From NCBI GenBank assembly GCA_903876865.1, contig CAIRBY010000318.1:1-36020 (forward strand): a DNA stretch of 36,020 bases, read 5' to 3'. A program made the translations under genes and the position numbers. The DNA comes from an uncultured Acidobacteriia bacterium (GTDB lineage Bacteria; Acidobacteriota; Terriglobia; Bryobacterales; Bryobacteraceae). Position 1 is the first letter of the stretch; each line of letters begins with the position of its first letter. Below are positions 1-16,821 of this stretch, piece by piece. Under the pieces are notes generated by a model. It had not been told where the DNA came from and did not search any database. It worked only from the letters and a program-made list of their open reading frames with translations.

Positions 1-378
1 AATGTGGTGGTGAGTTCGGCACTGGATGCGGATCGCGTGCGCTTCAAGCAGGTGCTCTACAACCTGCTGAGCAACGCGGTGAAATTCACGCCGCACAGCG
101 GGAAAGTGCACGTGGAAGCGGGCGAGGACGAAGGCATGCTGCAGGTCGCGGTGACGGATACCGGGATCGGCATCGCCAAGGAGCAGCACGCGTCGGTATT
201 CAACAAGTTCTATCAGGTGGGAGCCACCACCAAGGGAGTGAAGGAAGGCACGGGGCTCGGACTGGCAATCACCAAACACCTGGTGGAGCAGCACGGCGGG
301 CGCATTTCGCTCGCGAGCGAACCGGGCAACGGCAGTTGCTTCACTGTCCGGCTTCCCTTCTCCGCACCTGTCCTATGA
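1..378 (+). CDS. Sensor histidine kinase, C-terminal ATPase part (5' truncated by window)
   Basis: This is the catalytic end of a two-component sensor kinase, which would autophosphorylate a histidine and pass the phosphate to a response regulator. Only the HATPase_c domain is in the window. The N box (LLSNAVKFTP), the G1 box (DTGIGI) and the G2 box (GTGLGLAI) are all visible in the right order, followed by the usual end of the fold (GGRISLASEPGNGSCF). The reading frame is open to the first base, so the sensor and the phosphoaccepting His lie upstream. The stop is 10 bases before a single-domain response regulator and an NtrC-type regulator, so the three probably form one signalling operon. 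The signal sensed cannot be told. Confidence 0.93.
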   Translation, partial: NVVVSSALDADRVRFKQVLYNLLSNAVKFTPHSGKVHVEAGEDEGMLQVAVTDTGIGIAKEQHASVFNKFYQVGATTKGVKEGTGLGLAITKHLVEQHGGRISLASEPGNGSCFTVRLPFSAPVL

Positions 379-388
379 GGGCACGCGC

Positions 389-760
389 ATGAAAAAAGTC
401 CTGATCGCAGACGATAAAGCGACCAGCCGCGAACTGGTGCGCACGGTGCTGGAAAAGGAAGGCTACTCCGTGGTGGAGGCAGCCGACGGCATCGAAGCGC
501 TCGAGAACGCGCGGAGCGCGGAGCCCGACATGATCATTCTGGACCTGCAAATGCCGGGTCTGGACGGGTTCAGCGTGCTGGAGGAACTGCGCAAGGACGA
601 GCGGTTCCACGACACGCCGATCATGGCATTGACCGCGAGCGCGATGCAGGGCGACCGGGAGCGGGCGCTGACGATCGGATTCACGGGATATGTGACCAAG
701 CCGATCCGGCTGCAAGTCTTACGAAGCGAAGTCGAACGCCTGCTGCGCCTGCTACGATAG
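389..760 (+). CDS. Single-domain response regulator (CheY-like receiver)
   Basis: A 123-residue stand-alone receiver domain with no output domain. The acidic pair is D8/D9 (IADD), the predicted phosphorylated aspartate is D52 (LDLQMPG), the conserved Thr is T82 (LTAS) and the Lys is K104 (TKPI). All residues needed for phosphoryl transfer are present. It follows the kinase gene by 10 bases and precedes the NtrC-type gene by 9, so it may serve as a phosphorelay intermediate or as a protein-interaction switch for the same pathway. The start ATG AAA AAA is the natural one; the upstream GAGGGCACGCGC offers a weak ribosome site. Confidence 0.93.
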   Translation: MKKVLIADDKATSRELVRTVLEKEGYSVVEAADGIEALENARSAEPDMIILDLQMPGLDGFSVLEELRKDERFHDTPIMALTASAMQGDRERALTIGFTGYVTKPIRLQVLRSEVERLLRLLR

Positions 761-769
761 TAAGGCTCA

Positions 770-2146
770 ATGCCAACCGTACGCAGGCAGACGATTACGC
801 TGCTTATTATCGACGATAACCCCGGCAGTCTGGAACTGCTCTCTAGCGCCTTGGCGCAGCCCGATGTGGAGATACTCACCGCGTCGGACCCGGAGCAGGG
901 ACTGGACCTGATCTTCGAACACCATCCGCAGATTGTACTGACGGATCTGGTGATGCCGCGCCTGACCGGGCTGGACGTCCTGGACAGGATTATGGAGTTC
1001 GACCCTTCGATCGACGTGGTGCTGATGACGGCGCACTACTCGACGGAATCGGCGGTGGAGGCGATCAAAAAGGGCGCGTGCGATTACCTGAACAAACCGG
1101 TCTCGCTAGCCTCGCTGCGGGAGCGGGTGGGGCGGCTGATCGAGAGCGCGCGCAAACGGCAGCACGCCTCGCAGCTTGAGGACGAACTGCTGACGAGTTC
1201 GGAGTTCGAAGGCATCATCGGCAACAGCCCGCTGATGTGGGATCTGTTCTCGCGCATCCGGCGGGTGGCGCCGCATTACCGCACGGTGCTGATCACGGGC
1301 GAGACGGGCACGGGAAAAGACCTGGCGGCGCAGGCGCTGCACCGGCTGAGTCCGGCGGCGAGCGGACGGTACGTGGTGCTGAACTGCTCGGCGGTGGTGG
1401 AGACGCTGTTCGAGAGCGAATTGTTCGGCCATGTGAAGGGCTCCTTCACGGGCGCGGCGACGGACAAGGCGGGACTGGTGGAGCACGCGCACGGCGGCAC
1501 GCTTTTCCTGGACGAGATCGGGGATATGCCGCTGGCGACGCAGGCGAAGCTGCTGCGGGTGCTGCAGAACCAGGAAGTGCAGCGGGTGGGCTCGCTGACG
1601 CCGCGGAAGGTGGATGTGCGGGTGATTGCGGCGACCAACCGCGACCTGCGCGCGGGGATTGCGGACAAGCGTTTCCGCGAGGATCTCTACTACCGGCTGT
1701 CGATGGTGGAAATTCAAGTGCCGCGGCTCTCGCAGCGGCGCGAGGATCTGCCGCTATTGGAACGTTTCTTCGTGAGCCGTTTCGCGGCGCAGTACGGGAA
1801 GCGGATCCGGGGACTGAGTCCGCGGGCGCAGATCCGGCTTTCGCTGCATAGCTGGCCGGGGAACGTGCGCGAGTTGGAGAACGTGATCGGGCACGCGTGC
1901 ATGATGGCGCAGGGGGACACGATCGACGTGCCGGACCTGCCGCAATACCTGCATTCGGCGAGCGACGCTCCGGCGCTGGCTCCGGATGTGGCGAACAGCG
2001 CGGAAGTGGCGACGCTGGAGGATCAGGAGCGGCAGTTGATCATCCGCGCGCTGGAGCAGGCGGGCGGGAACCAATCGCAGGCGGCGCGGCTGTTGCGGAT
2101 CGGGCGGGACGCGCTGCGCTACAAGCTCAAGAAGCACAACCTCTAG
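770..2146 (+). CDS. Sigma-54-dependent response regulator, NtrC family
   Basis: A 458-residue activator of RNA polymerase carrying sigma-54 (RpoN). Domains in order: receiver (residues 8-125; predicted phospho-Asp D59, Lys K109), AAA+ domain (about 147-375) and a Fis-type helix-turn-helix at the C-terminus (NQSQAARLLRIGRDALRYKL). The AAA+ domain has Walker A GETGTGKD (177-184), the sigma-54-contacting loop as GSFTGA (224-229, a common variant of GAFTGA), Walker B TLFLDEIGDM and the second-region motif WPGNVREL. It is therefore expected to be a working activator. A sigma-54-type promoter element lies 100 bases downstream in front of the next gene, a likely but unproven target. Confidence 0.95.
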   Translation: MPTVRRQTITLLIIDDNPGSLELLSSALAQPDVEILTASDPEQGLDLIFEHHPQIVLTDLVMPRLTGLDVLDRIMEFDPSIDVVLMTAHYSTESAVEAIKKGACDYLNKPVSLASLRERVGRLIESARKRQHASQLEDELLTSSEFEGIIGNSPLMWDLFSRIRRVAPHYRTVLITGETGTGKDLAAQALHRLSPAASGRYVVLNCSAVVETLFESELFGHVKGSFTGAATDKAGLVEHAHGGTLFLDEIGDMPLATQAKLLRVLQNQEVQRVGSLTPRKVDVRVIAATNRDLRAGIADKRFREDLYYRLSMVEIQVPRLSQRREDLPLLERFFVSRFAAQYGKRIRGLSPRAQIRLSLHSWPGNVRELENVIGHACMMAQGDTIDVPDLPQYLHSASDAPALAPDVANSAEVATLEDQERQLIIRALEQAGGNQSQAARLLRIGRDALRYKLKKHNL

Positions 2147-5077: not shown

Positions 5078-6172
5078 ATGCATCCCGTGAGCACACCGAT
5101 GAACATCGATCAGGCGCCACTGGTGGTTACCTGGGAGACGACGCAGGCGTGCGACCTGGGATGCGCCTCGTGCAGGCTGGGAGCAAACCCGTACCCGGAT
5201 CCGGCGGAACTGACCACCGGGGAGGGCTTCCGGCTGCTGGAACAGATTCGTGAATTCGGGACGCCGCTCCTCATGTTCTCCGGCGGCGATCCCTTGAAGC
5301 GGCCAGACCTCACCTCCCTTCTGCGCCGCAGTGTCGCGCTGGGGCTTCGGACCCAAATCTGCCCCCGCGCGACACCACTACTCACGCGCGATGCGATGCG
5401 GCGGCTGCAGTCTTGCGGAGTCGAGCGGATGTCGATTTGCCTGGACGGACCCAACGCGTGGCAGCACGATGGCTTCCGGGGTGTGGACGGCGCCTACGAG
5501 CGGGCGGTGGAAGCGCTGGAAGACGCGCGGCTGATGGACCTGCGAACGGAGGTCCGCACCACGGTGACGCACCGCAACCTGCACTCGCTGGAGCAGATCG
5601 CGGAGATCGCGGCGAGCGTGGAAGCGCACACCTGGAGCCTGTTCTTCCCGGTGCCGCTGGGCGGCTGGAAGAACCAGGCATTGCTGGCGGACGAATACGA
5701 GCAGGTGTTCGAGCAACTGCAGGCGATTTCGAGCTGGGCGCCGTTCGAAGTGGTGACGAACGAAGCGGCGCACTACCGGCGGCACCTGGTAGACAGCGAG
5801 CAGTCGGAGAGCGGGCAAGGCGAGAGCCGGGAACGCTGCGCGGCTGTTAGCGACGGGCGCGGAAGCCTGTTCATCTCGCATACCGGGGAGATTCATCCGA
5901 GCGGTTTCCTGCCGGTCTCGGCGGGCAACGTGAGGCGGGATTCGCTGGTGGAGGTATACCGCAACTCCAGCCTGTTCCGCATTCTGCGCGATTCCCGGGG
6001 ACGCGAAGGCAAGTGCGGGTTCTGCGAATACGGAAGAGTGTGCGGCGGTTCCCGGGCGCGGGCGTATGCGGCAACGGGAGATTTTCTGGCCGAGGATCCG
6101 GGTTGCACGTACGAACCCGCTCGGGCGGCGGTCGAGGCACGGCGCATGAGCCGCCCGGTGCTGGTGCAATGA
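5078..6172 (+). CDS. Radical SAM/SPASM protein, NirJ/AhbD-like
   Basis: A 364-residue radical S-adenosylmethionine enzyme. The [4Fe-4S] motif is C25-x3-C29-x2-C32 (CDLGCASC), followed by the SAM-binding GGDP at 69-72. The C-terminal SPASM-type region carries C254, C313, C316, C322 and C343. Its GKCGFCEYGRVCGG and AEDPGC segments resemble the heme-modifying enzymes NirJ and AhbD and the related TIGR04053-type proteins. Where AhbD-like proteins have CGGC, this one has CGGS, so one auxiliary cysteine is absent. The gene lies just upstream of the multiheme cytochrome run, so a role in heme or tetrapyrrole supply is attractive but unproven; peptide modification is the alternative. ATG 5099 is an equally plausible start. 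Confidence 0.85.
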   Translation: MHPVSTPMNIDQAPLVVTWETTQACDLGCASCRLGANPYPDPAELTTGEGFRLLEQIREFGTPLLMFSGGDPLKRPDLTSLLRRSVALGLRTQICPRATPLLTRDAMRRLQSCGVERMSICLDGPNAWQHDGFRGVDGAYERAVEALEDARLMDLRTEVRTTVTHRNLHSLEQIAEIAASVEAHTWSLFFPVPLGGWKNQALLADEYEQVFEQLQAISSWAPFEVVTNEAAHYRRHLVDSEQSESGQGESRERCAAVSDGRGSLFISHTGEIHPSGFLPVSAGNVRRDSLVEVYRNSSLFRILRDSRGREGKCGFCEYGRVCGGSRARAYAATGDFLAEDPGCTYEPARAAVEARRMSRPVLVQ

Positions 6173-6311: not shown

Positions 6312-8474
6312 GTGAAAAACCTGTTTCAGATCAAGCGATCGGCGGTGATTCTTGCCGTACTCGCCATGACATTGATGGGGGCTGGGACCGGACCTGGAAG
6401 CAGGCTTGCGACCAAACTGGGGAACATCGCCCGCCGGAAGCTCGACTTCACGCAGCGGCAACGGGCGCTGGCGGCGGATCCTTCCGCAGCGGCCTTTGCG
6501 CGGCCGGGCCTGGTGATGACGGTCACGGGCGCGAAGATCGCGAGCGACGGCACGATCACGGCGACGGTATCGGTGACGGATCCGACGGGGGTCCCGCTGG
6601 ACCGGACCGGAGCCACGACGGCCGGCGCGATCTCGATGAGTCTGGTTGCGGCGACCATCCCCAAAGGCCAGACGCAGTATGTGGCCTACACGACGCGGAC
6701 GCAGACGAGCCCGATCACCAAAGTATCGGCGATTCAGGCGGGCGCGGATTCGGGCGGGACGTGGACGGTGGTGAGCGACGGCGTCTATTCCTACAAGTTC
6801 GGGATCAAAGCGCCGACGGGTTTTGACGCGACGGCGACGCACACGATCGGCCTGTATGGATCGAGAGACCTCTCGGCATCCGGGCTGGGGGTGGAGTATG
6901 CCTCCAACGTATTCACCTTCGTGCCGGCGGGCGGAGCGGTCACGGTGACGCGCGACGTGGTGCGGACCTCGGGCTGCAACAACTGCCACGATCAACTCTC
7001 TTTCCACGGCGGCTCACGGCGCGGCGTGGAACTCTGCATTTTGTGCCACACTCCGCAGACCATCGACCCGGACACGGGCAATACGCTCGATATGAAGGTA
7101 ATGGCGCACAAGATCCACATGGGATCGAGCCTGCCAAGCGTGAAGGCGGGTAAGCCTTACCAGATCATCGGCTTCAATCAGGCGGTGACGGACTGGTCCA
7201 CGGTAGTGTATCCGGCGGATGTACGGCGCTGCGAGACGTGCCATCAGCAGAACGTGGGCGCGGCGCAGGCGAAGAATTACCTGCTGAAGCCGACGCGGAT
7301 TGCGTGCGGCGCCTGCCACGACGACATCAACTTCACGACCGGCGCAAATCACGCGGGCGGACCGATGGTGGACGATACGATGTGCTCGATCTGCCACATC
7401 CCGCAGGGCGAGTTGGAATTCGACGCGTCGATCAAGGGCGCGCACACGATCGCGACGGAATCGGCCTCGCTGACGGGCCTGGTGGTCAACATTACGAAGA
7501 TTCAGAACGGCACGGCGGGGAAGGCGCCCTCGGTGAACTTCACGATCAAGAACGGGAACGGAGCGCCGCTGCCGATTTCGGCGCTGGGTTCGATCTCCTT
7601 CACGATGGCGGGACCGACTTCCGACTACGGCTACACGAGTTTCGGCAGCGATGTGACGACGCCGGGCTACGTGACGGAGAGTGCGACGAGTGCGAGTTGC
7701 GGTTCGGACGGCAGCTGCCTCTACACCTTCAAACACACGGTGCCGGCGAAGGCGACGGGCACTTACTCGATCGGCGTGGAAGCACGGCGCACGGAGACGA
7801 TTCTGGCGGGCACGACGACGCAACAGAATGTGCAGTACGGCGCCAAGAATCAGGTAGTGAGCTTCTCGGTGGACGGCAGTCCGCTGGTACCGCGGCGGAC
7901 GATCGTGGCGACGAGCAATTGCAATCAGTGCCACGTATCGCTTTCGGTACACGGGACGCTGCGGAACCAGACGGAATACTGCTCGCTGTGCCACAACCCC
8001 TCGAACACGGATTCCTCGGTGCGGCCGGTGGCGGTGGTGGCGGCGGATAAAGCGGCGCCGGCGCAGGGTGTCAACTTCAACCTGATGGTGCACCGCATCC
8101 ATACGGGGGAGAACATGCTGGCTGACGGGCGCACGTATTCGATCGTGGGATTCGGCGGAAGCCACAACGATTTCAGCGATGTCCGCTACCCGGCGATGAG
8201 CGCCACGGGTGGGGTGGGCGATACGCGGAACTGCTCGATCTGCCACGTGAACAACAGTGAGCAGACGCTGCCGGTGGGCAAGAACAAGGTAGTGGACCCG
8301 CAGGGACCGATCAACCCGATCCCGGCGGTCTCCTCGGCGTGCACGGGCTGCCATACGAGCCTGGAGACGGCGGGACATACGTTGCAGAACACGACGGTGC
8401 TGGGAGAGAGTTGCACGGTTTGCCACTCGGCCAGCGCCCCATACAGTGTAGGTCAGGTCCATGCGCAATATTAA
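6312..8474 (+). CDS. OmcA/MtrC-like decaheme c-type cytochrome
   Basis: A 720-residue exported cytochrome predicted to act as the outer-surface terminal of an extracellular electron conduit. It starts at GTG 6312, seven bases after AGGAAGGG. An N-terminal signal segment is followed by a beta-rich domain, five CxxCH motifs (residues 222-361), a second beta-rich domain (about 385-525) and five more CxxCH motifs (about 534-710). That makes ten hemes in two pentaheme halves, the MtrC/OmcA plan. MtrC and OmcA are lipoproteins, but no lipobox cysteine is visible here, so surface anchoring would have to differ. The 3' end overlaps the next cytochrome gene by 14 bases, showing an operon with the MtrA-like and MtrB-like genes. 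Confidence 0.9.
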   Translation: MKNLFQIKRSAVILAVLAMTLMGAGTGPGSRLATKLGNIARRKLDFTQRQRALAADPSAAAFARPGLVMTVTGAKIASDGTITATVSVTDPTGVPLDRTGATTAGAISMSLVAATIPKGQTQYVAYTTRTQTSPITKVSAIQAGADSGGTWTVVSDGVYSYKFGIKAPTGFDATATHTIGLYGSRDLSASGLGVEYASNVFTFVPAGGAVTVTRDVVRTSGCNNCHDQLSFHGGSRRGVELCILCHTPQTIDPDTGNTLDMKVMAHKIHMGSSLPSVKAGKPYQIIGFNQAVTDWSTVVYPADVRRCETCHQQNVGAAQAKNYLLKPTRIACGACHDDINFTTGANHAGGPMVDDTMCSICHIPQGELEFDASIKGAHTIATESASLTGLVVNITKIQNGTAGKAPSVNFTIKNGNGAPLPISALGSISFTMAGPTSDYGYTSFGSDVTTPGYVTESATSASCGSDGSCLYTFKHTVPAKATGTYSIGVEARRTETILAGTTTQQNVQYGAKNQVVSFSVDGSPLVPRRTIVATSNCNQCHVSLSVHGTLRNQTEYCSLCHNPSNTDSSVRPVAVVAADKAAPAQGVNFNLMVHRIHTGENMLADGRTYSIVGFGGSHNDFSDVRYPAMSATGGVGDTRNCSICHVNNSEQTLPVGKNKVVDPQGPINPIPAVSSACTGCHTSLETAGHTLQNTTVLGESCTVCHSASAPYSVGQVHAQY

Positions 8475-9681
8475 AATCGCACTAGGAGCGGCGCTCTTCC
8501 TGATAGCAGCCGCATCCGCAAGCGCTCAGGAGAAGGCAGCGGCGGCAGCGCCCGCGCCGGCGAAAGAACGGAAAATCGTCGGTTCGGAAGCTTGCGCCAT
8601 GTGCCACGAAGACATTCCCAAGGCGATGCTGCTGAAGAATCCGCATCGGAAGCTGGAGACAGATCCGCGGCGGAAGGTTCAGGGTCACGCCTGCGAAGCG
8701 TGCCATGGAGGAGCTTCCGCCCACACGGAGAGTCTCGCCAAGGACGACATCAACAATCCCAAGACGATGGAAACGGGCGCCTCCCGGGCGATCTGCCTGA
8801 CGTGCCACGGGGACAAGAAACGCCATGCGGGCGGGCAGAGCGCGTGCACCACGTGCCACTCGATGCACCGCAAGCCGCCCACCGACGACGCAGCGGCAGC
8901 CGCGGCACCGGCAGCAGCCGAGCCCAAGGCTGAAGCGAAAGCCGAAGTAAAGACCGAAGCCAAAGTGGAGGCCAAGGCGGCGCCTCAGGCCGCAGCCAAG
9001 GCAACGGCGGCGAAGAAGACGAAGGCTGGCGGAGCCGAGCCGGTGAACTGCCTGACGGCAGAGTGCCATGTGCACGCCGGGCACACCAGCCATCCTCCGG
9101 TAGCGGGGGGCGGCGACGCCTGCGTGTCGTGCCATACCAACGTCCCGGCCGGCCACACGGCGAACCTGGTGGCGCTGGATGAAGGCGCGGCGGCGAAGAA
9201 GGCGGTCGGGAAGGTGCCGGCGGATGTGTGCGGCACGTGCCACACGAATGTGGTGGCGCAGTTCCAGAAGCCATTCCATCACAAAGTTCCCGAAGGCGCG
9301 ATGACGTGCGTGGATTGCCACAATCCGCATACCGCCACGAAATCGCCGATCCTGCGGAGTATGGGCGCGAACGAGCCGGGCTGTTTCAAATGCCACGGCG
9401 ACAAGCGCGGGCCCTTCACGTTCGACCATGCGCCGGTGAAGTTTGAAGGCTGTGGCGCCTGCCACGAAGCGCACGGCTCGGCAAATCCAAGAATGTTGAC
9501 GCGACCGACGGTCAATCAGGTGTGCCTGGAGTGCCATGCGAACCTGCCGGCCGCACCCTCGAGCGTCGCCGGTGTGGTGCCGCCGGCCTTCCACGATCTC
9601 CGCTCTCCGCGGTATCAGAACTGCACGGTGTGCCACCAGAAGATCCACGGAAGCCACGTGGACCGGAATCTACTGAAATGA
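8461..9681 (+). CDS. MtrA/DmsE-like periplasmic multiheme cytochrome, 11 CxxCH plus one CX4CH
   Basis: A 406-residue cytochrome with a Sec signal (cleavage probably after ASASA, residue 22), expected to fill the outer-membrane barrel from the periplasmic side. Eleven canonical CxxCH motifs are visible, plus C197-x4-C202-H203, a spacing known from tetraheme cytochromes c3, giving 11 or 12 hemes where MtrA has 10. Four hemes lie before and the rest after a segment of about 50 residues (141-191) made almost entirely of Ala, Lys and Glu. This linker would separate an N-terminal tetraheme module from the remaining wire. The start overlaps the upstream gene, and the stop overlaps the MtrB-like start as ATGA. 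Confidence 0.9.
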   Translation: MRNIKIALGAALFLIAAASASAQEKAAAAAPAPAKERKIVGSEACAMCHEDIPKAMLLKNPHRKLETDPRRKVQGHACEACHGGASAHTESLAKDDINNPKTMETGASRAICLTCHGDKKRHAGGQSACTTCHSMHRKPPTDDAAAAAAPAAAEPKAEAKAEVKTEAKVEAKAAPQAAAKATAAKKTKAGGAEPVNCLTAECHVHAGHTSHPPVAGGGDACVSCHTNVPAGHTANLVALDEGAAAKKAVGKVPADVCGTCHTNVVAQFQKPFHHKVPEGAMTCVDCHNPHTATKSPILRSMGANEPGCFKCHGDKRGPFTFDHAPVKFEGCGACHEAHGSANPRMLTRPTVNQVCLECHANLPAAPSSVAGVVPPAFHDLRSPRYQNCTVCHQKIHGSHVDRNLLK

Positions 9682-11768
9682 GACCGCTCCTCCTGATCGT
9701 GTGCCTATTGCCACTGGCTGCGCAGCAACCGCAAGCGCAGCCCACCACCGCCGCGGCGACTACCGCGGCGGACGCCAAGCCGGCAGCGGAGCAGAAGCCC
9801 GCTGGCGACGCGAAGGCTCCTGACGCGAAAGCGGCCGATGCGAAGCCGGCTGACGCCGCGCCCGCGCCGGCGCCAAAGCCCGCGGCGGATCCCAATGCCG
9901 AGAACTGGCTGAAAGGCTCGATCGATTTCGGGTACCGATGGCGCAGCGACGTGGCCGGCAGCATGGCCACCTACCGCAGCATCGTGGACCTGGGATCGGG
10001 CCCGAAACTGCTGGGCGCGGATTTCACCATCATCGACCCGAAGCGGCGCGGCTTCGACCGGCTGGATGTGCGTGCGTACGGCTGGGGCGGCGACCCCTAC
10101 TCCACACTGCATGTGGGGCTGAAGCGGGCGCGGATGTACGATTTCACGGCCGACTACCGCAACATCGCGTACTTCAACATGCTGCCCTCTTATGCGGATC
10201 CGCTGCTCGGGCGCGGCATCACGTTGAGCGAACAATCCTTCGATATGCGGCGGCGGATTGCGAGCTTCGAGTTGGATTTACTGCCGGGATACTGGATCGT
10301 GCCGTATCTGGCGTACGACCGGAATTCGAATTCGGGCTCGGGCGCCACGGCGTTCGTTTCGCAGGGCAACGAGTATCCGGTGCCGAACAAACTGAGCGAC
10401 CGGACCAACCTCTACCGGGGCGGCTTCCGGATCGAATTGCGGCGCGTGCACGCGACGCTGGAGCAGGGCGGCACCTCATTCACGGACGACCAGAATGTGT
10501 ACGACACTCCGGGCGCGGCCAATTACGGCAATGTGAACACGCTGGTGTTCGGACAGAAGCTGAACCTGACGAGCCTGCTGGCAACCTACGGCATCAAGGG
10601 CAACAGCGTCTACACCAAGGGGCTGATCACCTACAATGTGGCGAGCCGGATCGACCTGTACGGGCAATTCCTGTTCAGCCAGCCGCACAGCGACGTGAAT
10701 TACCAACAGGCAGACGCGGGCAATCTGTATCTGCAGAGCCAGATTCTGTTTTACAAGAGCGAGCAGTTCCTGCTCGCCGCCGCCTCCAAGATGCCGCACA
10801 CCACGGCCAATCTGGGCGCGGAACTCCGGCCCGTCAAGGGGATCCGGGTGGTGGAATCGTGGCTGACCGACCGGATGCACAACGCCGGGTCGGCGAGTTC
10901 CTCGCTGGCGATGACCGGCACCGGGCTTTCGCAATCCACGGCGGCGCTCTTGGCCTCTTCGCTCGCAAACAACTACAGCCAGCACCAGACGGACGTGATT
11001 GTGGACGCGGCGAAGAAACTGACGCTGCGCGCGGGATACCGGTTCGTGTGGGGCGATGCGCGGGACCTGGTGCTTCCGGTGGCGGGCGTTTCCAATTCGA
11101 TGACCGGCACGCTGCGGCGCAATGTGGCGCTGATCGGCGGCACGTACCGCGCGGGGCAGAAGTTCGTGCTGACGGCGGATGGGGAACTCGGCACCTCGAC
11201 GGGCACATACTTCCGGACCAGCCTGTACAACTACCAGAAGGTACGCGCGCAGGCGCGCTACCAGGTGGCGAAATCGCTGAACCTGTCGGCGGATTTCCTG
11301 CGGCTGAACAATCAGAATCCGACAACGGGGATCAAGTACGATTACCTGGCCAGCCAGGAATCGCTTTCGTTGCAGTGGAAGCCGGCAATTCTGAAATACG
11401 TCGACCTGATCGGCTCCTATAGCCGCTCCAATATGCGGTCGAATCTTGGCTACCTGATGCCGCAGGATCTCTCGCAGCAGCAATCGATCTACCGGGAGAA
11501 CGCGCACACGGCCACGGGGCTGCTCAAGGTGAGACTGCCGCACACGGCGACGATCGCACCGACGCTGGAAGCGGGGGGTTCGCTGTTCCTCTCCTCCGGC
11601 AGCCGGGCCACGTCGTCCTACCAGCCGAGGTTGAATTTGTGGGTCCCTTTCACAACGAAGTTCGGGTGGTTCACAGAGTGGCGATATTATGACTACGGCG
11701 AGGCCCTTTATCTGTACGAGGGCTTCCGCACACAAGTGGTGACGGCCGGAGTGAGGATTACGAGATGA
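9678..11768 (+). CDS. MtrB/PioB-like outer-membrane beta-barrel of the porin-cytochrome complex
   Basis: A 696-residue exported protein expected to form the barrel that sheathes the MtrA-like cytochrome. ATG 9678 overlaps the preceding stop (ATGA) and begins a signal peptide (MRPLLLIVCLLPLAAQ). It is followed by an Ala/Pro/Lys-rich linker with ADAKPA-like repeats to about residue 75. The remainder alternates short amphipathic strands with turns rich in Asn, Gly, Ser and Tyr, as expected of a large barrel. The open frame extends upstream to 9522, but that part lies over the previous gene and lacks a signal. The C-terminus is VRITR, without the usual terminal aromatic residue. The family call rests on size, barrel pattern and position next to MtrC- and MtrA-like genes. 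Confidence 0.83.
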   Translation: MRPLLLIVCLLPLAAQQPQAQPTTAAATTAADAKPAAEQKPAGDAKAPDAKAADAKPADAAPAPAPKPAADPNAENWLKGSIDFGYRWRSDVAGSMATYRSIVDLGSGPKLLGADFTIIDPKRRGFDRLDVRAYGWGGDPYSTLHVGLKRARMYDFTADYRNIAYFNMLPSYADPLLGRGITLSEQSFDMRRRIASFELDLLPGYWIVPYLAYDRNSNSGSGATAFVSQGNEYPVPNKLSDRTNLYRGGFRIELRRVHATLEQGGTSFTDDQNVYDTPGAANYGNVNTLVFGQKLNLTSLLATYGIKGNSVYTKGLITYNVASRIDLYGQFLFSQPHSDVNYQQADAGNLYLQSQILFYKSEQFLLAAASKMPHTTANLGAELRPVKGIRVVESWLTDRMHNAGSASSSLAMTGTGLSQSTAALLASSLANNYSQHQTDVIVDAAKKLTLRAGYRFVWGDARDLVLPVAGVSNSMTGTLRRNVALIGGTYRAGQKFVLTADGELGTSTGTYFRTSLYNYQKVRAQARYQVAKSLNLSADFLRLNNQNPTTGIKYDYLASQESLSLQWKPAILKYVDLIGSYSRSNMRSNLGYLMPQDLSQQQSIYRENAHTATGLLKVRLPHTATIAPTLEAGGSLFLSSGSRATSSYQPRLNLWVPFTTKFGWFTEWRYYDYGEALYLYEGFRTQVVTAGVRITR

Positions 11769-12913
11769 CGACACGGATTGCCATACTTCTGGGATCGGCG
11801 CTATTGGCGACGGCGCCACTGGCATCAACAGCGGCGGCGCAGACTACGGCGCTGACGGCGGACTCGGAGCGGGGACTGGGATTGTTCGAGTCGCTCTCCT
11901 GCGTGAAATGCCATAGCGTGAACGGCAAAGGCGGCAAGGTTGGTCCCGATCTGGGACGGCTGGTGGATCGCGATTTCACGCCCGCGGCGCTGGCCTCCAC
12001 CATGTGGAACCACGCGCCGAACATGTGGGAGACGATGAAAGAGAAGGGAGTGAAGGTCCCGGACCTGACTCCGCAGGCAGCGGCCGATCTTTTCGCGTAC
12101 TTTTACTCGGCGCGTTTCTTTGAGAAGCCGGGCGACGCGGGACGGGGCAAGCGCCTGTTCACGGAGCGGGTGTGCGCGCAGTGCCACGGACTGACGAGCA
12201 AGGGTCCGGAAGGCGCGCCGGCGGTGAGCGAGTGGCATACGCTGAACTCCCCGTTTACGCTGGCGGAAGCGATGTGGAACCACCTGCCGCGCATGCGCGA
12301 AGTGGCGGCCACGAAGAAAGTGACTTTGCCGCAGTTGAGCGCGCAGGACCTGGTGGACCTGCTGGTGTATCTGCGCAACCTGCCGGCGCTGCAAGACAAA
12401 CAGGGCGGGTTCCAGACTACGTCTGGCGCCGATGGCGCGGCCCTGTTCCAATCGAAGGGCTGCGCGGGCTGCCATAAGGAAGGCTCGGCGCTGGCCAGCC
12501 GGATCCGCGGGACGACGCTGACGGAGATTGCCTCCGCGATGTGGAATCACGCACCGAAGATGGCCGACGCGGGCGCGCCGGCGGTGCAGTTCCAGGCTGG
12601 CGAGATGCGGGAGTTGCTCAGCTTTCTCTGGGCGAAGCAGTTTTTTGCAGGCACGGGAGAACCGGCTAAGGGCAAGAAAGTATTCACCGCGAAGAAGTGT
12701 GTGACCTGCCACGACGACCCGAGTTCGGGCGCGCCGAAATTGCAGACGCTAGCCAACACCTTCAGCGCCGCCGGGATGGTGTCCGCCCTGTTTCATCACG
12801 GGCCGATCATGCTGGAGAAGATGCGGGGCCGCAAATTGGGCTGGCCGCGGATCGAGTCGCTGGAAATGGCGGATCTGATCGCCTATTTGAATTCTCAGGA
12901 ACGCAGTAAATGA
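11765..12913 (+). CDS. Tetraheme cytochrome built of four tandem monoheme domains
   Basis: A 382-residue secreted protein (signal to about residue 26, STAAAQ) made of four class-I-like cytochrome c domains of roughly 90 residues each. CxxCH motifs are at 46, 137, 233 and 312. Each is followed 26-34 residues later by a copy of a shared motif: MWNHAPNM (80), MWNHLPRM (170), MWNHAPKM (259) and LFHHGPIM (342). The last residue of each copy is Met and the fourth is His, either of which could be the distal heme ligand. It starts on the ATGA overlap with the barrel gene. A periplasmic shuttle between inner- and outer-membrane complexes is the likely role, inferred from the operon. Confidence 0.87.
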   Translation: MTTRIAILLGSALLATAPLASTAAAQTTALTADSERGLGLFESLSCVKCHSVNGKGGKVGPDLGRLVDRDFTPAALASTMWNHAPNMWETMKEKGVKVPDLTPQAAADLFAYFYSARFFEKPGDAGRGKRLFTERVCAQCHGLTSKGPEGAPAVSEWHTLNSPFTLAEAMWNHLPRMREVAATKKVTLPQLSAQDLVDLLVYLRNLPALQDKQGGFQTTSGADGAALFQSKGCAGCHKEGSALASRIRGTTLTEIASAMWNHAPKMADAGAPAVQFQAGEMRELLSFLWAKQFFAGTGEPAKGKKVFTAKKCVTCHDDPSSGAPKLQTLANTFSAAGMVSALFHHGPIMLEKMRGRKLGWPRIESLEMADLIAYLNSQERSK

Positions 12914-12956: not shown

Positions 12957-13175
12957 ATGTCGAAGTTGAAGTTGATTGCGCCAGCCGTCATCCTGGCCTG
13001 TGGTTTCGCGGTGCTGACAACCGCGTCTTATGCCAAGCCCGAGTACACCAAGAGCGAAAAGAAAGCCTGCACCTTCTGCCATGTGGATGCGAAGGCGAAG
13101 CCGAAAGAGCTGAACGACGCCGGCAACTATTACAAGGATCACAATCACAGTTTCGAAGGATACACAAAGAAGTAA
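12957..13175 (+). CDS. Small monoheme c-type cytochrome
   Basis: A 72-residue protein with a clear signal peptide (cleavage near TTASYA, residue 26), leaving a mature protein of about 46 residues. One heme motif CTFCH follows, then a Lys/His/Asn-rich tail with no obvious distal methionine; a His from the DHNHSF segment could be the sixth ligand. A strong ribosome site AAGGAG (12944-12949) lies seven bases before the ATG. The very small size suggests a soluble electron shuttle or a subunit. Its stop overlaps a possible upstream start of the next gene. Confidence 0.85.
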   Translation: MSKLKLIAPAVILACGFAVLTTASYAKPEYTKSEKKACTFCHVDAKAKPKELNDAGNYYKDHNHSFEGYTKK

Positions 13176-13190
13176 TGCGGCGACTTGGGG

Positions 13191-13198
13191 AAAGGAGG
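13191..13198 (+). promoter_or_regulatory. Strong ribosome-binding site that sets the GTG start at 13205
   Basis: AAAGGAGG is a near-perfect Shine-Dalgarno sequence six bases before GTG 13205. An in-frame ATG at 13175 is only poorly served by upstream sequence. The GTG lies in an 11-base sequence repeated once with a 12-base period, so a second in-frame GTG is present at 13217. Confidence 0.7.
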
Positions 13199-13204
13199 CA
13201 TTCC

Positions 13205-13609
13205 GTGGAGCGATCCGTGGAGCGATCATTAGCCGAACTGGAAGCAATTGTTCGCAACAAGCTCTGCCGGTACTGTACCGACCGCACACCGGAAGGGTGT
13301 TGCGGCCTGGAACGGCCCGAAGAGTGTGCCCTGTTCCGCCTGTTTCCCCAGGTTGTCCATGCGATTCAGTCCACCGACAGCGACAATGTCAACGATTACG
13401 TAGCGGCGATCCGCGGCGAAGTGTGCGTGATCTGCCAGGAACAGTCCACAGACGGTTCCTGCGAGAAACGGCACGACGTGCAGTGCACGCTGGATGCGTA
13501 TCTGTTGCTGGTGGTGGACGCGATCGAAGAGGCCACAGGGAGGGACTTCGGCCGCGCCGCGTTAGATGCGGGGCGACGATGGACCTCCCCTGCCGTACTC
13601 AGCCATTAA
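13205..13609 (+). CDS. Unrecognised protein with two four-cysteine repeats, inside the cytochrome operon
   Basis: A 134-residue protein with no signal peptide, so probably cytoplasmic. Two copies of a repeat of about 35 residues share exact cysteine spacing C-x2-C-x8-C-x7-C: C21, C24, C33, C41 and C74, C77, C86, C94. Each is followed by a hydrophobic helix ending in VV-x-A-I. An extra cysteine, C32, sits in the first copy. Four evenly placed cysteines per copy could bind one [4Fe-4S] cluster or one zinc each. I do not recognise the family. It sits between the small cytochrome and the CbcL-like gene, so possible roles are cofactor assembly, regulation or electron transfer to the inner-membrane complex. 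The start is GTG 13205 on ribosome-site evidence. Confidence 0.8.
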   Translation: MERSVERSLAELEAIVRNKLCRYCTDRTPEGCCGLERPEECALFRLFPQVVHAIQSTDSDNVNDYVAAIRGEVCVICQEQSTDGSCEKRHDVQCTLDAYLLLVVDAIEEATGRDFGRAALDAGRRWTSPAVLSH

Positions 13610-13649: not shown

Positions 13650-15353
13650 ATGGACACCCGTAGGATACGTTTGACCCGATTTGGCCCACCTCTGCTTCTG
13701 CTGCTGGTCGGTTTTCTTTTCCAGGGAGTGCTGCCGGCCGAGGAGTGCACCACCTGCCACACGGAGCAGGCGGGAAAGCTCACCAAAAGCGCGCACGGCA
13801 GCCTGACGTGCGACACCTGCCACGAGCAGCACGAGAAGTTCCCGCATCCGGCGAACGTGGCGAAACCGGTATGCGCTACCTGCCACGCCGACGAATCCAC
13901 TGAATTCCAGAAGAGCGTCCATAGCGACGAACAGAAGAAGGGCAACACGGCGGCGCCGGATTGCGGATTGTGCCACGGCAGCGCACACGAGTTGCTGAAG
14001 CCGAAGACCGAGGCGTTCCGCAAGGCGCTTCCCGACCAGTGCGGGATGTGCCACAGCGACATTGCCGAACAGTTCAAGACGAGCGTGCATGGGATGGCGG
14101 TGGCGAGCGGCATCGGGCAGGCGCCGGTCTGTTCGGATTGCCACGGGTCGCACGCGATTCTGCGGCACACGAATGTGAATTCGCCGGTGTTCCGGACGCA
14201 CGTGCGCGACACCTGCGGAGGTTGCCACGGGAACGTACAGCTTTCGCGGCAGATGAAGATGCCGGAAGACCGGCTGGTGAGTTTCGACGAGAGCTTCCAC
14301 GGATTGGCGGCGAAGGCGGGCAACCAGACGGTGGCGAACTGCGCGAGTTGCCACGGAGTGCATCATATTCTGCCCTCGACCGATCCGAAATCGATGATCA
14401 ATCCCAAGAATCTGCCGGCGACTTGCGGGCAGTGCCATCCGGGCGCGGGCAAGCGCTTCGCGATCACGCAGGTACATTTCCTGCAGGGCAAGGAATCGCA
14501 GGCGGTGGCGTGGGTACGGCAGTTCTACTCGCTGGTGATTCCGCTGACGCTGGGCTTGATGCTGCTGCACAATCTGGGCGACTGGCTGCGCAAATTGTTC
14601 CGGCTTCGCTCGCGGCGGATGGTGCTGGCGACGGCGCGACAGTCGGCACACGCCGATTCACACGGCCTGGCCCACGCCGATGCCCAACCCGAAATGAGGA
14701 TGTTGCCGTTCGAGCGGGTGCAGCACCTGGTCACGGCGGTTTCCTTCCTGGTGCTGGTATGGACGGGCTTCGCCTTGAAGTATCCGGACCAGTGGTGGGC
14801 GCGTCCGCTGATGATGACAGAGGCTTCGCGGCCGATGCGCAGCCTGATTCACCGCGCGGCGGCGATCGTGTTCATGGCAATCAGCGTCACGCACCTGATC
14901 TCACTGATTGTGAACCGGAAATTGCGGCATCACTGGATGGAACTGGCGCCCAAGGTCAGCGACGCCACGGAAGCGGCGGGCACCTTCGCCTACAATCTGG
15001 GACTGATCCAGACCAAGCCGGCGCGCTCGGCGCACAGCTATGTCGAGAAGGCGGAATACTGGGCGGTGGTTTGGGGAGCTATCGTCATGGTAGCCTCGGG
15101 ATGCATCCTGTGGGCCAATAACCTGATTCTGTCGCATTTCTCCAAAGACTGGCTGGATGTGGCGACTTCGGTGCACTTCTACGAAGCGGTACTGGCCACG
15201 CTGGCGATCGTGATCTGGCATTTCTATTCGGCCATTTTCGATCCCGATGTTTATCCGTTGGATACTGCCTGGTACTCGGGATTTAGCGTAAGAAAGCATG
15301 CAAAACACGAAGGGGAGAAGCCCGGGTCCGACAAGGGTCCGGCGCATAAATAA
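13650..15353 (+). CDS. CbcL-like fusion: nine-heme cytochrome c domain plus membrane cytochrome b domain
   Basis: A 567-residue inner-membrane protein, the likely quinol oxidase that feeds electrons into the periplasm. After a signal/anchor (residues 11-30), nine CxxCH motifs occupy residues 33-263. Four or five transmembrane helices follow (about 290-555), with histidines placed as for b-type hemes (ERVQHLVTA, RSLIHRAAA, SVTHLI, IVIWHFYSAIF). Nine c hemes fused to a diheme cytochrome b is the arrangement described for Geobacter CbcL, used for low-potential extracellular electron acceptors. A gene encoding a NapC/NirT-type protein begins four bases after its stop. The organism may therefore have two entry points from the quinone pool. 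Confidence 0.87.
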   Translation: MDTRRIRLTRFGPPLLLLLVGFLFQGVLPAEECTTCHTEQAGKLTKSAHGSLTCDTCHEQHEKFPHPANVAKPVCATCHADESTEFQKSVHSDEQKKGNTAAPDCGLCHGSAHELLKPKTEAFRKALPDQCGMCHSDIAEQFKTSVHGMAVASGIGQAPVCSDCHGSHAILRHTNVNSPVFRTHVRDTCGGCHGNVQLSRQMKMPEDRLVSFDESFHGLAAKAGNQTVANCASCHGVHHILPSTDPKSMINPKNLPATCGQCHPGAGKRFAITQVHFLQGKESQAVAWVRQFYSLVIPLTLGLMLLHNLGDWLRKLFRLRSRRMVLATARQSAHADSHGLAHADAQPEMRMLPFERVQHLVTAVSFLVLVWTGFALKYPDQWWARPLMMTEASRPMRSLIHRAAAIVFMAISVTHLISLIVNRKLRHHWMELAPKVSDATEAAGTFAYNLGLIQTKPARSAHSYVEKAEYWAVVWGAIVMVASGCILWANNLILSHFSKDWLDVATSVHFYEAVLATLAIVIWHFYSAIFDPDVYPLDTAWYSGFSVRKHAKHEGEKPGSDKGPAHK

Positions 15354-15357
15354 CTGA

Positions 15358-16821
15358 ATGCCTCGAAAACTAATTGGCGACTGGTTGTCGCCGCTGATTT
15401 ACTTCGCCGACAACTGGACCAGCCGCATTGGGATGGGGATCGTGACCACAGCGACCGTGCTGTGGATCTTCCTGCTACCCACGACCTTGCGCGGTGAAAT
15501 GCAGAACCCGTACATCGGGATTCTCTCTTACCTGGTACTGCCGGGCGTCTTTTTTGGCGGCCTGGCATTGATCCCACTGGGAATCATCGCCAAGCGGAAA
15601 CTGTCCCGGCGGAAGGGGAGGGTGCCAACGTCTTTCGGCCCGTTGAACTGGGCCAACACGGAGTTCCGGCGGCTGGTGATTCTGATCGGACTGCTGACGT
15701 TCGCCAATATTGCGATCGGGAGCCAGTTCACCTATGGCGCGATCAATTACATGGATTCGGTGACGTTCTGCGGCAAGACGTGCCACACGGTGATGCAGCC
15801 GGAATTCACGGCTTACCAGGATTCGCCGCACTCGCGGGTGGAGTGCGTGAAGTGCCATATCGGTCCGGGAGCGTCGTGGTTCGTGCAGAGCAAGTTATCG
15901 GGGGCAAGCCAGTTGATCGCGGTGACATTGAACACGTACCCGCGCCCGATTCCGGCCCCGGTGCATAACCTGCGCCCGGCGCGCGACACCTGCGAGACCT
16001 GCCACTGGCCGCAGAAGTATGCGACCGACCGCGTCAAGATCTTCCCCAAGTACGCGGAAGACGAGACCAACACGGCGAGCAAGACGGTGGTGATGATCAA
16101 GATCGGCGGCGGGAATAACGGGATCGGCATTCACGGCACGCATCTCGGGGTGGGCGTGAAGATTCGCTACGCGCCATCCGACGAGCAGCGCCAGACGATT
16201 CCGTGGATCGAATACAACGGTCCGGGACGGCAGACGGTATACCAGGCGGACGGCACGAAGGGTCCGGGGAATATGGCGGTGCGCGAGATGGATTGCATGG
16301 ATTGCCACAACCGTCCGGCGCATGCCTATCAGCTGCCGGAGCGCGCACTGGACGAGGCGATGTTCGCGGGAAAGGTCTCGCCGACGCTGCCCAACGCCAA
16401 GAAGGAAGGCCTGGAACTGCTGAAGGCTACGTACGCGACGCGCGAGATGGCGGCTGCGCGGATTCCGGCGGCGTTCACGGATTTCTATAAGCAAAAGTAC
16501 CCGGCGGTTTACAGCCAGAACGCGGCGCTGGTGGCACAGAGCGGCAAGGAAGTGCTGGCGGTGTGGGAGCGCAACATCTTCCCGGACATGAATGTGACCT
16601 GGGGCAAGTACCCGGTGAACATTGGCCACACGGATTTCCCGGGCTGCTTCCGCTGCCACGATGGTTCGCACGCGAGCCCGGACGGTAAGACGGTGACGCA
16701 GGATTGCGGCGCCTGCCATACCGTACTGGCGGTGGAAGAGGCGGCGCCGAAGATTCTCACGGATCTTGGCATGGCGCCGGCGGAAGATACCAAACCGAGC
16801 GCGCCGAGTGGTAAAAAGTAG
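15358..16821 (+). CDS. NapC/NirT-type membrane multiheme cytochrome (ImcH-like candidate)
   Basis: A 487-residue inner-membrane cytochrome predicted to take electrons from quinol. Three transmembrane helices (about 24-42, 55-78, 105-121) precede a periplasmic domain. Heme motifs are C138-GKT-C-H (a CX3CH variant with three spacing residues), then five CxxCH: CVKCH, CETCH, CMDCH, CFRCH and CGACH, so six hemes. The first motif is followed by TVMQPEF, the place where NapC-family proteins carry an unusual methionine or other ligand near the quinol site. Length and membrane anchor fit the NapC/NirT group that includes Geobacter ImcH. The assignment to ImcH itself is tentative because heme numbers differ. 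Confidence 0.82.
   Translation: MPRKLIGDWLSPLIYFADNWTSRIGMGIVTTATVLWIFLLPTTLRGEMQNPYIGILSYLVLPGVFFGGLALIPLGIIAKRKLSRRKGRVPTSFGPLNWANTEFRRLVILIGLLTFANIAIGSQFTYGAINYMDSVTFCGKTCHTVMQPEFTAYQDSPHSRVECVKCHIGPGASWFVQSKLSGASQLIAVTLNTYPRPIPAPVHNLRPARDTCETCHWPQKYATDRVKIFPKYAEDETNTASKTVVMIKIGGGNNGIGIHGTHLGVGVKIRYAPSDEQRQTIPWIEYNGPGRQTVYQADGTKGPGNMAVREMDCMDCHNRPAHAYQLPERALDEAMFAGKVSPTLPNAKKEGLELLKATYATREMAAARIPAAFTDFYKQKYPAVYSQNAALVAQSGKEVLAVWERNIFPDMNVTWGKYPVNIGHTDFPGCFRCHDGSHASPDGKTVTQDCGACHTVLAVEEAAPKILTDLGMAPAEDTKPSAPSGKK

Follow-up and report, generated by a model that had tools for sequence, protein, structure and literature searches.

A conserved, previously unnamed family of eight-cysteine proteins encoded in respiratory gene clusters of Acidobacteriota

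CbcL and NapC take electrons from quinol in the membrane and carry their c hemes outside. Bryobacteraceae and other soil Acidobacteriota carry genes for extracellular electron transfer. Clusters of the CbcL/MtrCAB type are the genomic setting of the eight-cysteine protein described here, both in the window (the whole stretch of 36,020 nucleotides that was analysed) and for most members from Bryobacteraceae, but it is itself no cytochrome, and such clusters also exist without it. Three groups of described proteins resemble it in part. First, the cytoplasmic PAS protein NreB holds, by means of four cysteines, a [4Fe-4S] cluster that is labile to oxygen and governs anaerobic respiration (PMC4601167). 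NreB-type PAS oxygen sensors and other Cys4 Fe-S sensors likewise combine four cysteines, a cytoplasmic location and a link to genes of anaerobic respiration; however, the eight-cysteine protein has neither a PAS domain nor a kinase, the likeness to NreB is one of analogy, and it suits the neighbouring PAS/sigma-54 regulator better. Second, regulators of the Rrf2 family (IscR/NsrR) are also cysteine-rich and redox-linked, and are encoded beside several eight-cysteine members, but no DNA-binding domain was detected in the eight-cysteine protein. Third, C-x2-C-x8-C-x7-C appears in print as the opening half of the B-box 2 zinc finger of plants, and plant B-box (BBX) proteins, in which the first four cysteines have this spacing, often contain two tandem copies (PMC3485221). 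The second half of the B-box, C-x2-C-x4-H-x8-H, is nevertheless found as a strict pattern in 0 of 52 members, the eight-cysteine family is bacterial and no sequence match links the two; the B-box identity was rejected because this second half is missing. The original prediction that no named family has this pattern is thus upheld for the family but not for the spacing as such.

In the window, an extracellular electron transfer cluster is encoded on the forward strand. In brief, it includes: (i) an OmcA/MtrC-family decaheme cytochrome (6312-8474; TIGR03507, E-value 2e-148); (ii) a DmsE/MtrA-family decaheme cytochrome (8461-9681; TIGR03508, above cut-off); (iii) a probable MtrB/PioB-like outer-membrane barrel (9678-11768), which has no family match and is recognised by its position and size and by the MtrC-MtrA-barrel order; (iv) an exported c-type cytochrome with four hemes (11765-12913); (v) an exported monoheme c-type protein of 72 residues (12957-13175), with one CXXCH motif and no match in Pfam or NCBIfam, which is the conserved upstream partner in Bryobacteraceae; (vi) the eight-cysteine protein (13205-13609); (vii) a CbcL-like inner-membrane protein (13650-15353), whose gene begins 41 nt further downstream and whose label refers to its nine CXXCH motifs and its cytochrome b domain (PF01292) and not to a sequence comparison with CbcL; and (viii) a NapC/NrfH-like membrane cytochrome with five hemes (15358-16821; PF03264, with TIGR03153 below cut-off). 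A radical SAM/SPASM protein is encoded just upstream of the cytochrome cluster (5078-6172), and in another locus (L065) the NapC-like gene is followed by one whose product has a similar N-terminus.

The eight-cysteine gene encodes a protein of 134 residues. Translation confirms two copies of C-x2-C-x8-C-x7-C, offset by 53 residues: site 1 (13265-13327) consists of C21, C24, C33 and C41, and site 2 (13424-13486) of C74, C77, C86 and C94. An additional cysteine adjoining C33, C32, is not conserved among members and does not belong to site 1. Three starts may be considered: GTG 13205 is supported by an AGGAGG motif at 13193-13198, 6 nt upstream; the starts of orthologues correspond to GTG 13217 and not to GTG 13205; and a TAATG overlap permits ATG 13175. 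Neither a signal peptide nor a transmembrane segment is evident from hydropathy, in agreement with the original prediction on the signal peptide, and the protein is probably cytoplasmic.

Searches of Pfam and NCBIfam, with the single protein and with alignments, gave no match above a curated cut-off, and a sequence search of the PDB with the same queries returned nothing significant. The view in the original prediction that no named family is involved is supported by these searches. Some members matched zinc-binding Pfam domains weakly, PF13832 and PF13771 among them, but an identity as one of these zinc fingers was dropped since the scores lie below the cut-offs of both. A Pfam match to Rrf2 was obtained for one of 17 members, with an E-value of 0.33, and no ferredoxin family matched. 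A scan of 84,980 species with the single sequence recovered eight relatives, all of them in metagenome-assembled genomes of Acidobacteriota, and two chance matches in Actinopolyspora (L009, L010), set aside as short segments of 45-49% whose translation contains no CxxC pair. A further match (G361, E-value 7e-5) was left out because it sits in a SecA-like frame of 927 residues with a cysteine-containing tail. Profile searches, which covered Acidobacteriota, recovered the family in 46 of 400 relatives, of which 40 belong to Bryobacteraceae, the family of the window; members also occur in other classes of the phylum. No member was found in the collections of viral contigs and plasmids searched, and the literature search yielded no description of the family. 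Judged by these searches, the eight-cysteine proteins are an unnamed family missing from Pfam and NCBIfam, and for this reason annotation pipelines miss it.

The cysteines are strongly conserved among the 52 aligned members, from which one locus (L106) was excluded as its two halves lie in different frames. Site 1 is invariant (C21, C24, C33 and C41 in 52/52), whereas at site 2 C74, C77 and an arginine three residues past C86, R89, are present in 52/52, C86 in 51/52 and C94 in 46/52, so that this site is complete in 46 members (positions are those of the window protein; the alignment numbering is 4 lower). The spacing (2,8,7) is kept at both sites in most members. In five divergent proteins (L107-L111) the final cysteine of site 2 is the sole one missing, and in one member (L037) two cysteines of this site are missing. 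The loss of the cysteines in homologues, named beforehand as a reason to abandon the original prediction, was thus not observed. Furthermore, the two halves of the protein align with a BLOSUM62 score of 60, which none of 1000 shuffles reached, whether all residues were shuffled (mean 21.7, sd 4.0) or the cysteines were held fixed (mean 27.0, sd 6.9). The same signal was found in five of six members tested; in the most divergent of the six (L039) it is marginal with the cysteines fixed, being reached by 31 of 1000 shuffles. The two cysteine units are explained by tandem duplication, and the two equivalent four-cysteine sites proposed at the outset are supported. The dN/dS ratios of the relative pairs measured were about 0.05-0.26, and the gene encodes a real protein under purifying selection.

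At the level of sequence, the conserved quartets have the composition of Cys4 metal-binding sites (Zn or Fe-S). Because such quartets are conserved in a cytoplasmic protein, they point to a bound metal, and each unit most probably holds a single metal centre, either zinc or an Fe-S cluster. Two structure models were of moderate confidence (mean pLDDT 61 and 65). In the better model, both halves run in the same order, from a helix that stops near the CxxC pair through a short bridge or hairpin at the third cysteine to another helix past the fourth; the unit is modelled as a helix, a CxxC knuckle, a short hairpin that bears the third cysteine and a second helix with the fourth cysteine at its N-terminal end. 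Foldseek returned no match at E <= 0.001 with these models. The best fold-search matches (Z 5.6, rmsd 3.1 over 74 aligned residues, and Z 5.2, rmsd 3.3 over 71) are low-scoring, common helical arrangements, and none of them is convincing.

In most loci of Bryobacteraceae, the gene belongs to a conserved block. The gene for a PAS/sigma-54 regulator, divergently oriented and no more than about 1 kb away, is followed by those for the monoheme protein (72 residues), a receiver-like protein (145 residues), the eight-cysteine protein, a protein of 93 residues with two transmembrane segments, the CbcL-like nine-heme/cytochrome b protein and the NapC/NrfH-like five-heme protein; a universal stress protein is a frequent addition. 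The receiver-like protein (for example L001:5509-5946, forward strand), encoded in many of these loci, has no match in Pfam or NCBIfam, and its label is a reading of its sequence. The two-segment protein (for example L001:6428-6709, forward strand) precedes the CbcL-like gene in most loci, even where the eight-cysteine gene is absent. The window differs from the usual block: the receiver-like and two-segment genes are not adjacent, the PAS/sigma-54 regulator does not adjoin the eight-cysteine gene, and the genes for OmcA/MtrC, MtrA and the probable barrel lie upstream; the genome of the window yielded no homologue of the receiver-like protein. The original statement that all neighbours are exported or membrane proteins holds for the adjacent genes in the window but not for the relatives, where cytoplasmic regulators are among the neighbours. 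The PAS/sigma-54 regulator (for example L001:3738-5078, reverse strand, and 23 further loci) carries C-x5-C-x2-C-x3-C in its PAS region, a motif that is invariant across all 24 loci examined whether or not the eight-cysteine gene is present; this region is a candidate Fe-S or redox-sensing PAS domain. Genomes that have no eight-cysteine protein can also encode this regulator and the receiver-like protein; as the regulator keeps its own four-cysteine motif in them, it does not need the eight-cysteine protein.

Among 37 sampled genomes of Bryobacteraceae, the eight-cysteine gene is present in 12 of the 25 that have a CbcL-like gene and in none of the 12 that do not (Fisher p = 0.003, not corrected for phylogeny). 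A core part would be present wherever the CbcL-like module is; the eight-cysteine gene was found in 12 of 25, and operon loci that lack it were inspected. Its absence from about half of the CbcL-like-bearing genomes sampled indicates an accessory protein and not a part of the conduit. Given also that the family occurs far from conduits, the idea of a specific conduit part is unlikely. The original prediction is partly supported, its suggested coupling of the cytoplasmic redox state to the conduit being a conjecture. Near the CbcL-like operon, four loci encode a protein that combines 19 CXXCH motifs with predicted transmembrane segments (L128:853-3663, forward; L130:3-2594, L042:2212-5154 and L064:2596-4980, reverse).

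Distant members are encoded in other contexts. In two loci (L034, L036) the member adjoins an Rrf2 regulator and a molybdenum oxidoreductase; in L047 a PAS-LuxR protein and a pyruvate:ferredoxin oxidoreductase are adjacent, with a molybdenum oxidoreductase and Rrf2 nearby; in L046 a PAS-LuxR protein and a 2-oxoacid dehydrogenase are found; and in L104 a sigma-54 response regulator, a fructose bisphosphatase and a 2-oxoacid:ferredoxin oxidoreductase. The member adjoins genes for Rrf2 and a cNMP-binding protein in L107, and for a cNMP-binding protein in L108 and L109. Other members are encoded beside a heme A synthase (CtaA), a UbiA-type farnesyltransferase and an ABC ATPase (L103), in a similar order with COX3 and DUF420 in addition (L105), beside COX3/COX4 (L037), beside an FTR1 iron permease (L035), or next to an MgtC-family (MgtC/DUF4010) membrane protein (L038, L039); no adjacent regulator was identified in these six loci. 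The members L038:1870-2631 (reverse strand) and L039:8383-9147 (forward strand) are extended at the N-terminus by about 130 residues. Respiration and redox enzymes are the shared theme, and a transcription regulator or signalling domain is present in about half of the context types, as a tally across these loci uncorrected for the genomic background.

Since the enzymes vary while respiration-linked regulators recur, a sensor or adaptor is favoured over an assembly factor, a zinc adaptor or an electron carrier. Our leading reading, which is tentative and could well prove wrong, is that of a cytoplasmic protein whose Zn or Fe-S centres respond to redox state and which acts together with neighbouring regulators. 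The two putative centres would sense the redox state of the cytoplasm, oxygen or the supply of metal. Protein-protein contact would then pass the signal to the regulators encoded alongside: in Bryobacteraceae, the PAS/sigma-54 activator and the receiver-like protein; in other clades, Rrf2, PAS-LuxR or cNMP-binding proteins. Expression of the neighbouring respiratory module would thereby be adjusted; in the window, this would be the CbcL-like quinol oxidase feeding the MtrCAB-type conduit.

A cofactor or assembly factor, which would carry or insert a metal, an Fe-S cluster or heme, or chaperone adjacent respiratory complexes, is a rather doubtful explanation. Members do occur within clusters of CtaA, UbiA-type farnesyltransferase, COX3 and DUF420 (L103, L105) and COX3/COX4 (L037), in molybdenum oxidoreductase clusters (L034, L036, L047) and with FTR1 (L035); however, no single cofactor is common to the nine-heme cytochrome, the heme-copper oxidase, the thiamine-dependent 2-oxoacid enzymes and the molybdenum enzyme, and about half of the CbcL-like operons manage without the protein. 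The all-cysteine CxxC sites and the predicted helix-knuckle-hairpin-helix unit would also be consistent with a structural double zinc-knuckle adaptor that mediates protein interactions without redox chemistry, and the Pfam matches common to most members are to zinc-binding domains. These matches are all weak, below every cut-off, and may reflect cysteine spacing alone, and the L107-L111 clade, with three cysteines at site 2, tolerates the loss of a ligand, so we regard such an adaptor as unlikely. A soluble ferredoxin-like carrier feeding adjacent quinone or cytochrome enzymes is very improbable: eight conserved cysteines could hold two clusters and one member (L047) adjoins a pyruvate:ferredoxin oxidoreductase, but no ferredoxin family was matched, and quinol in the membrane is the expected electron source of the CbcL-like and NapC-like proteins, so that no cytoplasmic carrier is needed.

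The proteins form a real, conserved, previously unnamed family in respiratory gene clusters, for which metal-based sensing is a plausible hypothesis. Encoded between regulators and a quinol oxidase, the eight-cysteine protein is a specific, testable candidate link from intracellular redox state to extracellular respiration. The broader form of the sensing reading is speculative and on balance improbable as a whole: a two-centre Acidobacteriota family would read the cytoplasmic redox state and, through regulator types specific to each clade, set the output of the co-encoded respiratory module, be it for mineral respiration, oxygen respiration or molybdenum enzymes. In the tree, members tied to electron-transfer operons group together and members with other contexts fall outside; the L107-L111 branch is nested within the electron-transfer-linked group, but it is long and its placement is unsure. 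One locus (L112) encodes two eight-cysteine paralogues head to head (160-507, reverse strand, and 593-1429, forward strand), one of which groups with the PAS-LuxR-linked clade and the other with the CbcL-linked clade.
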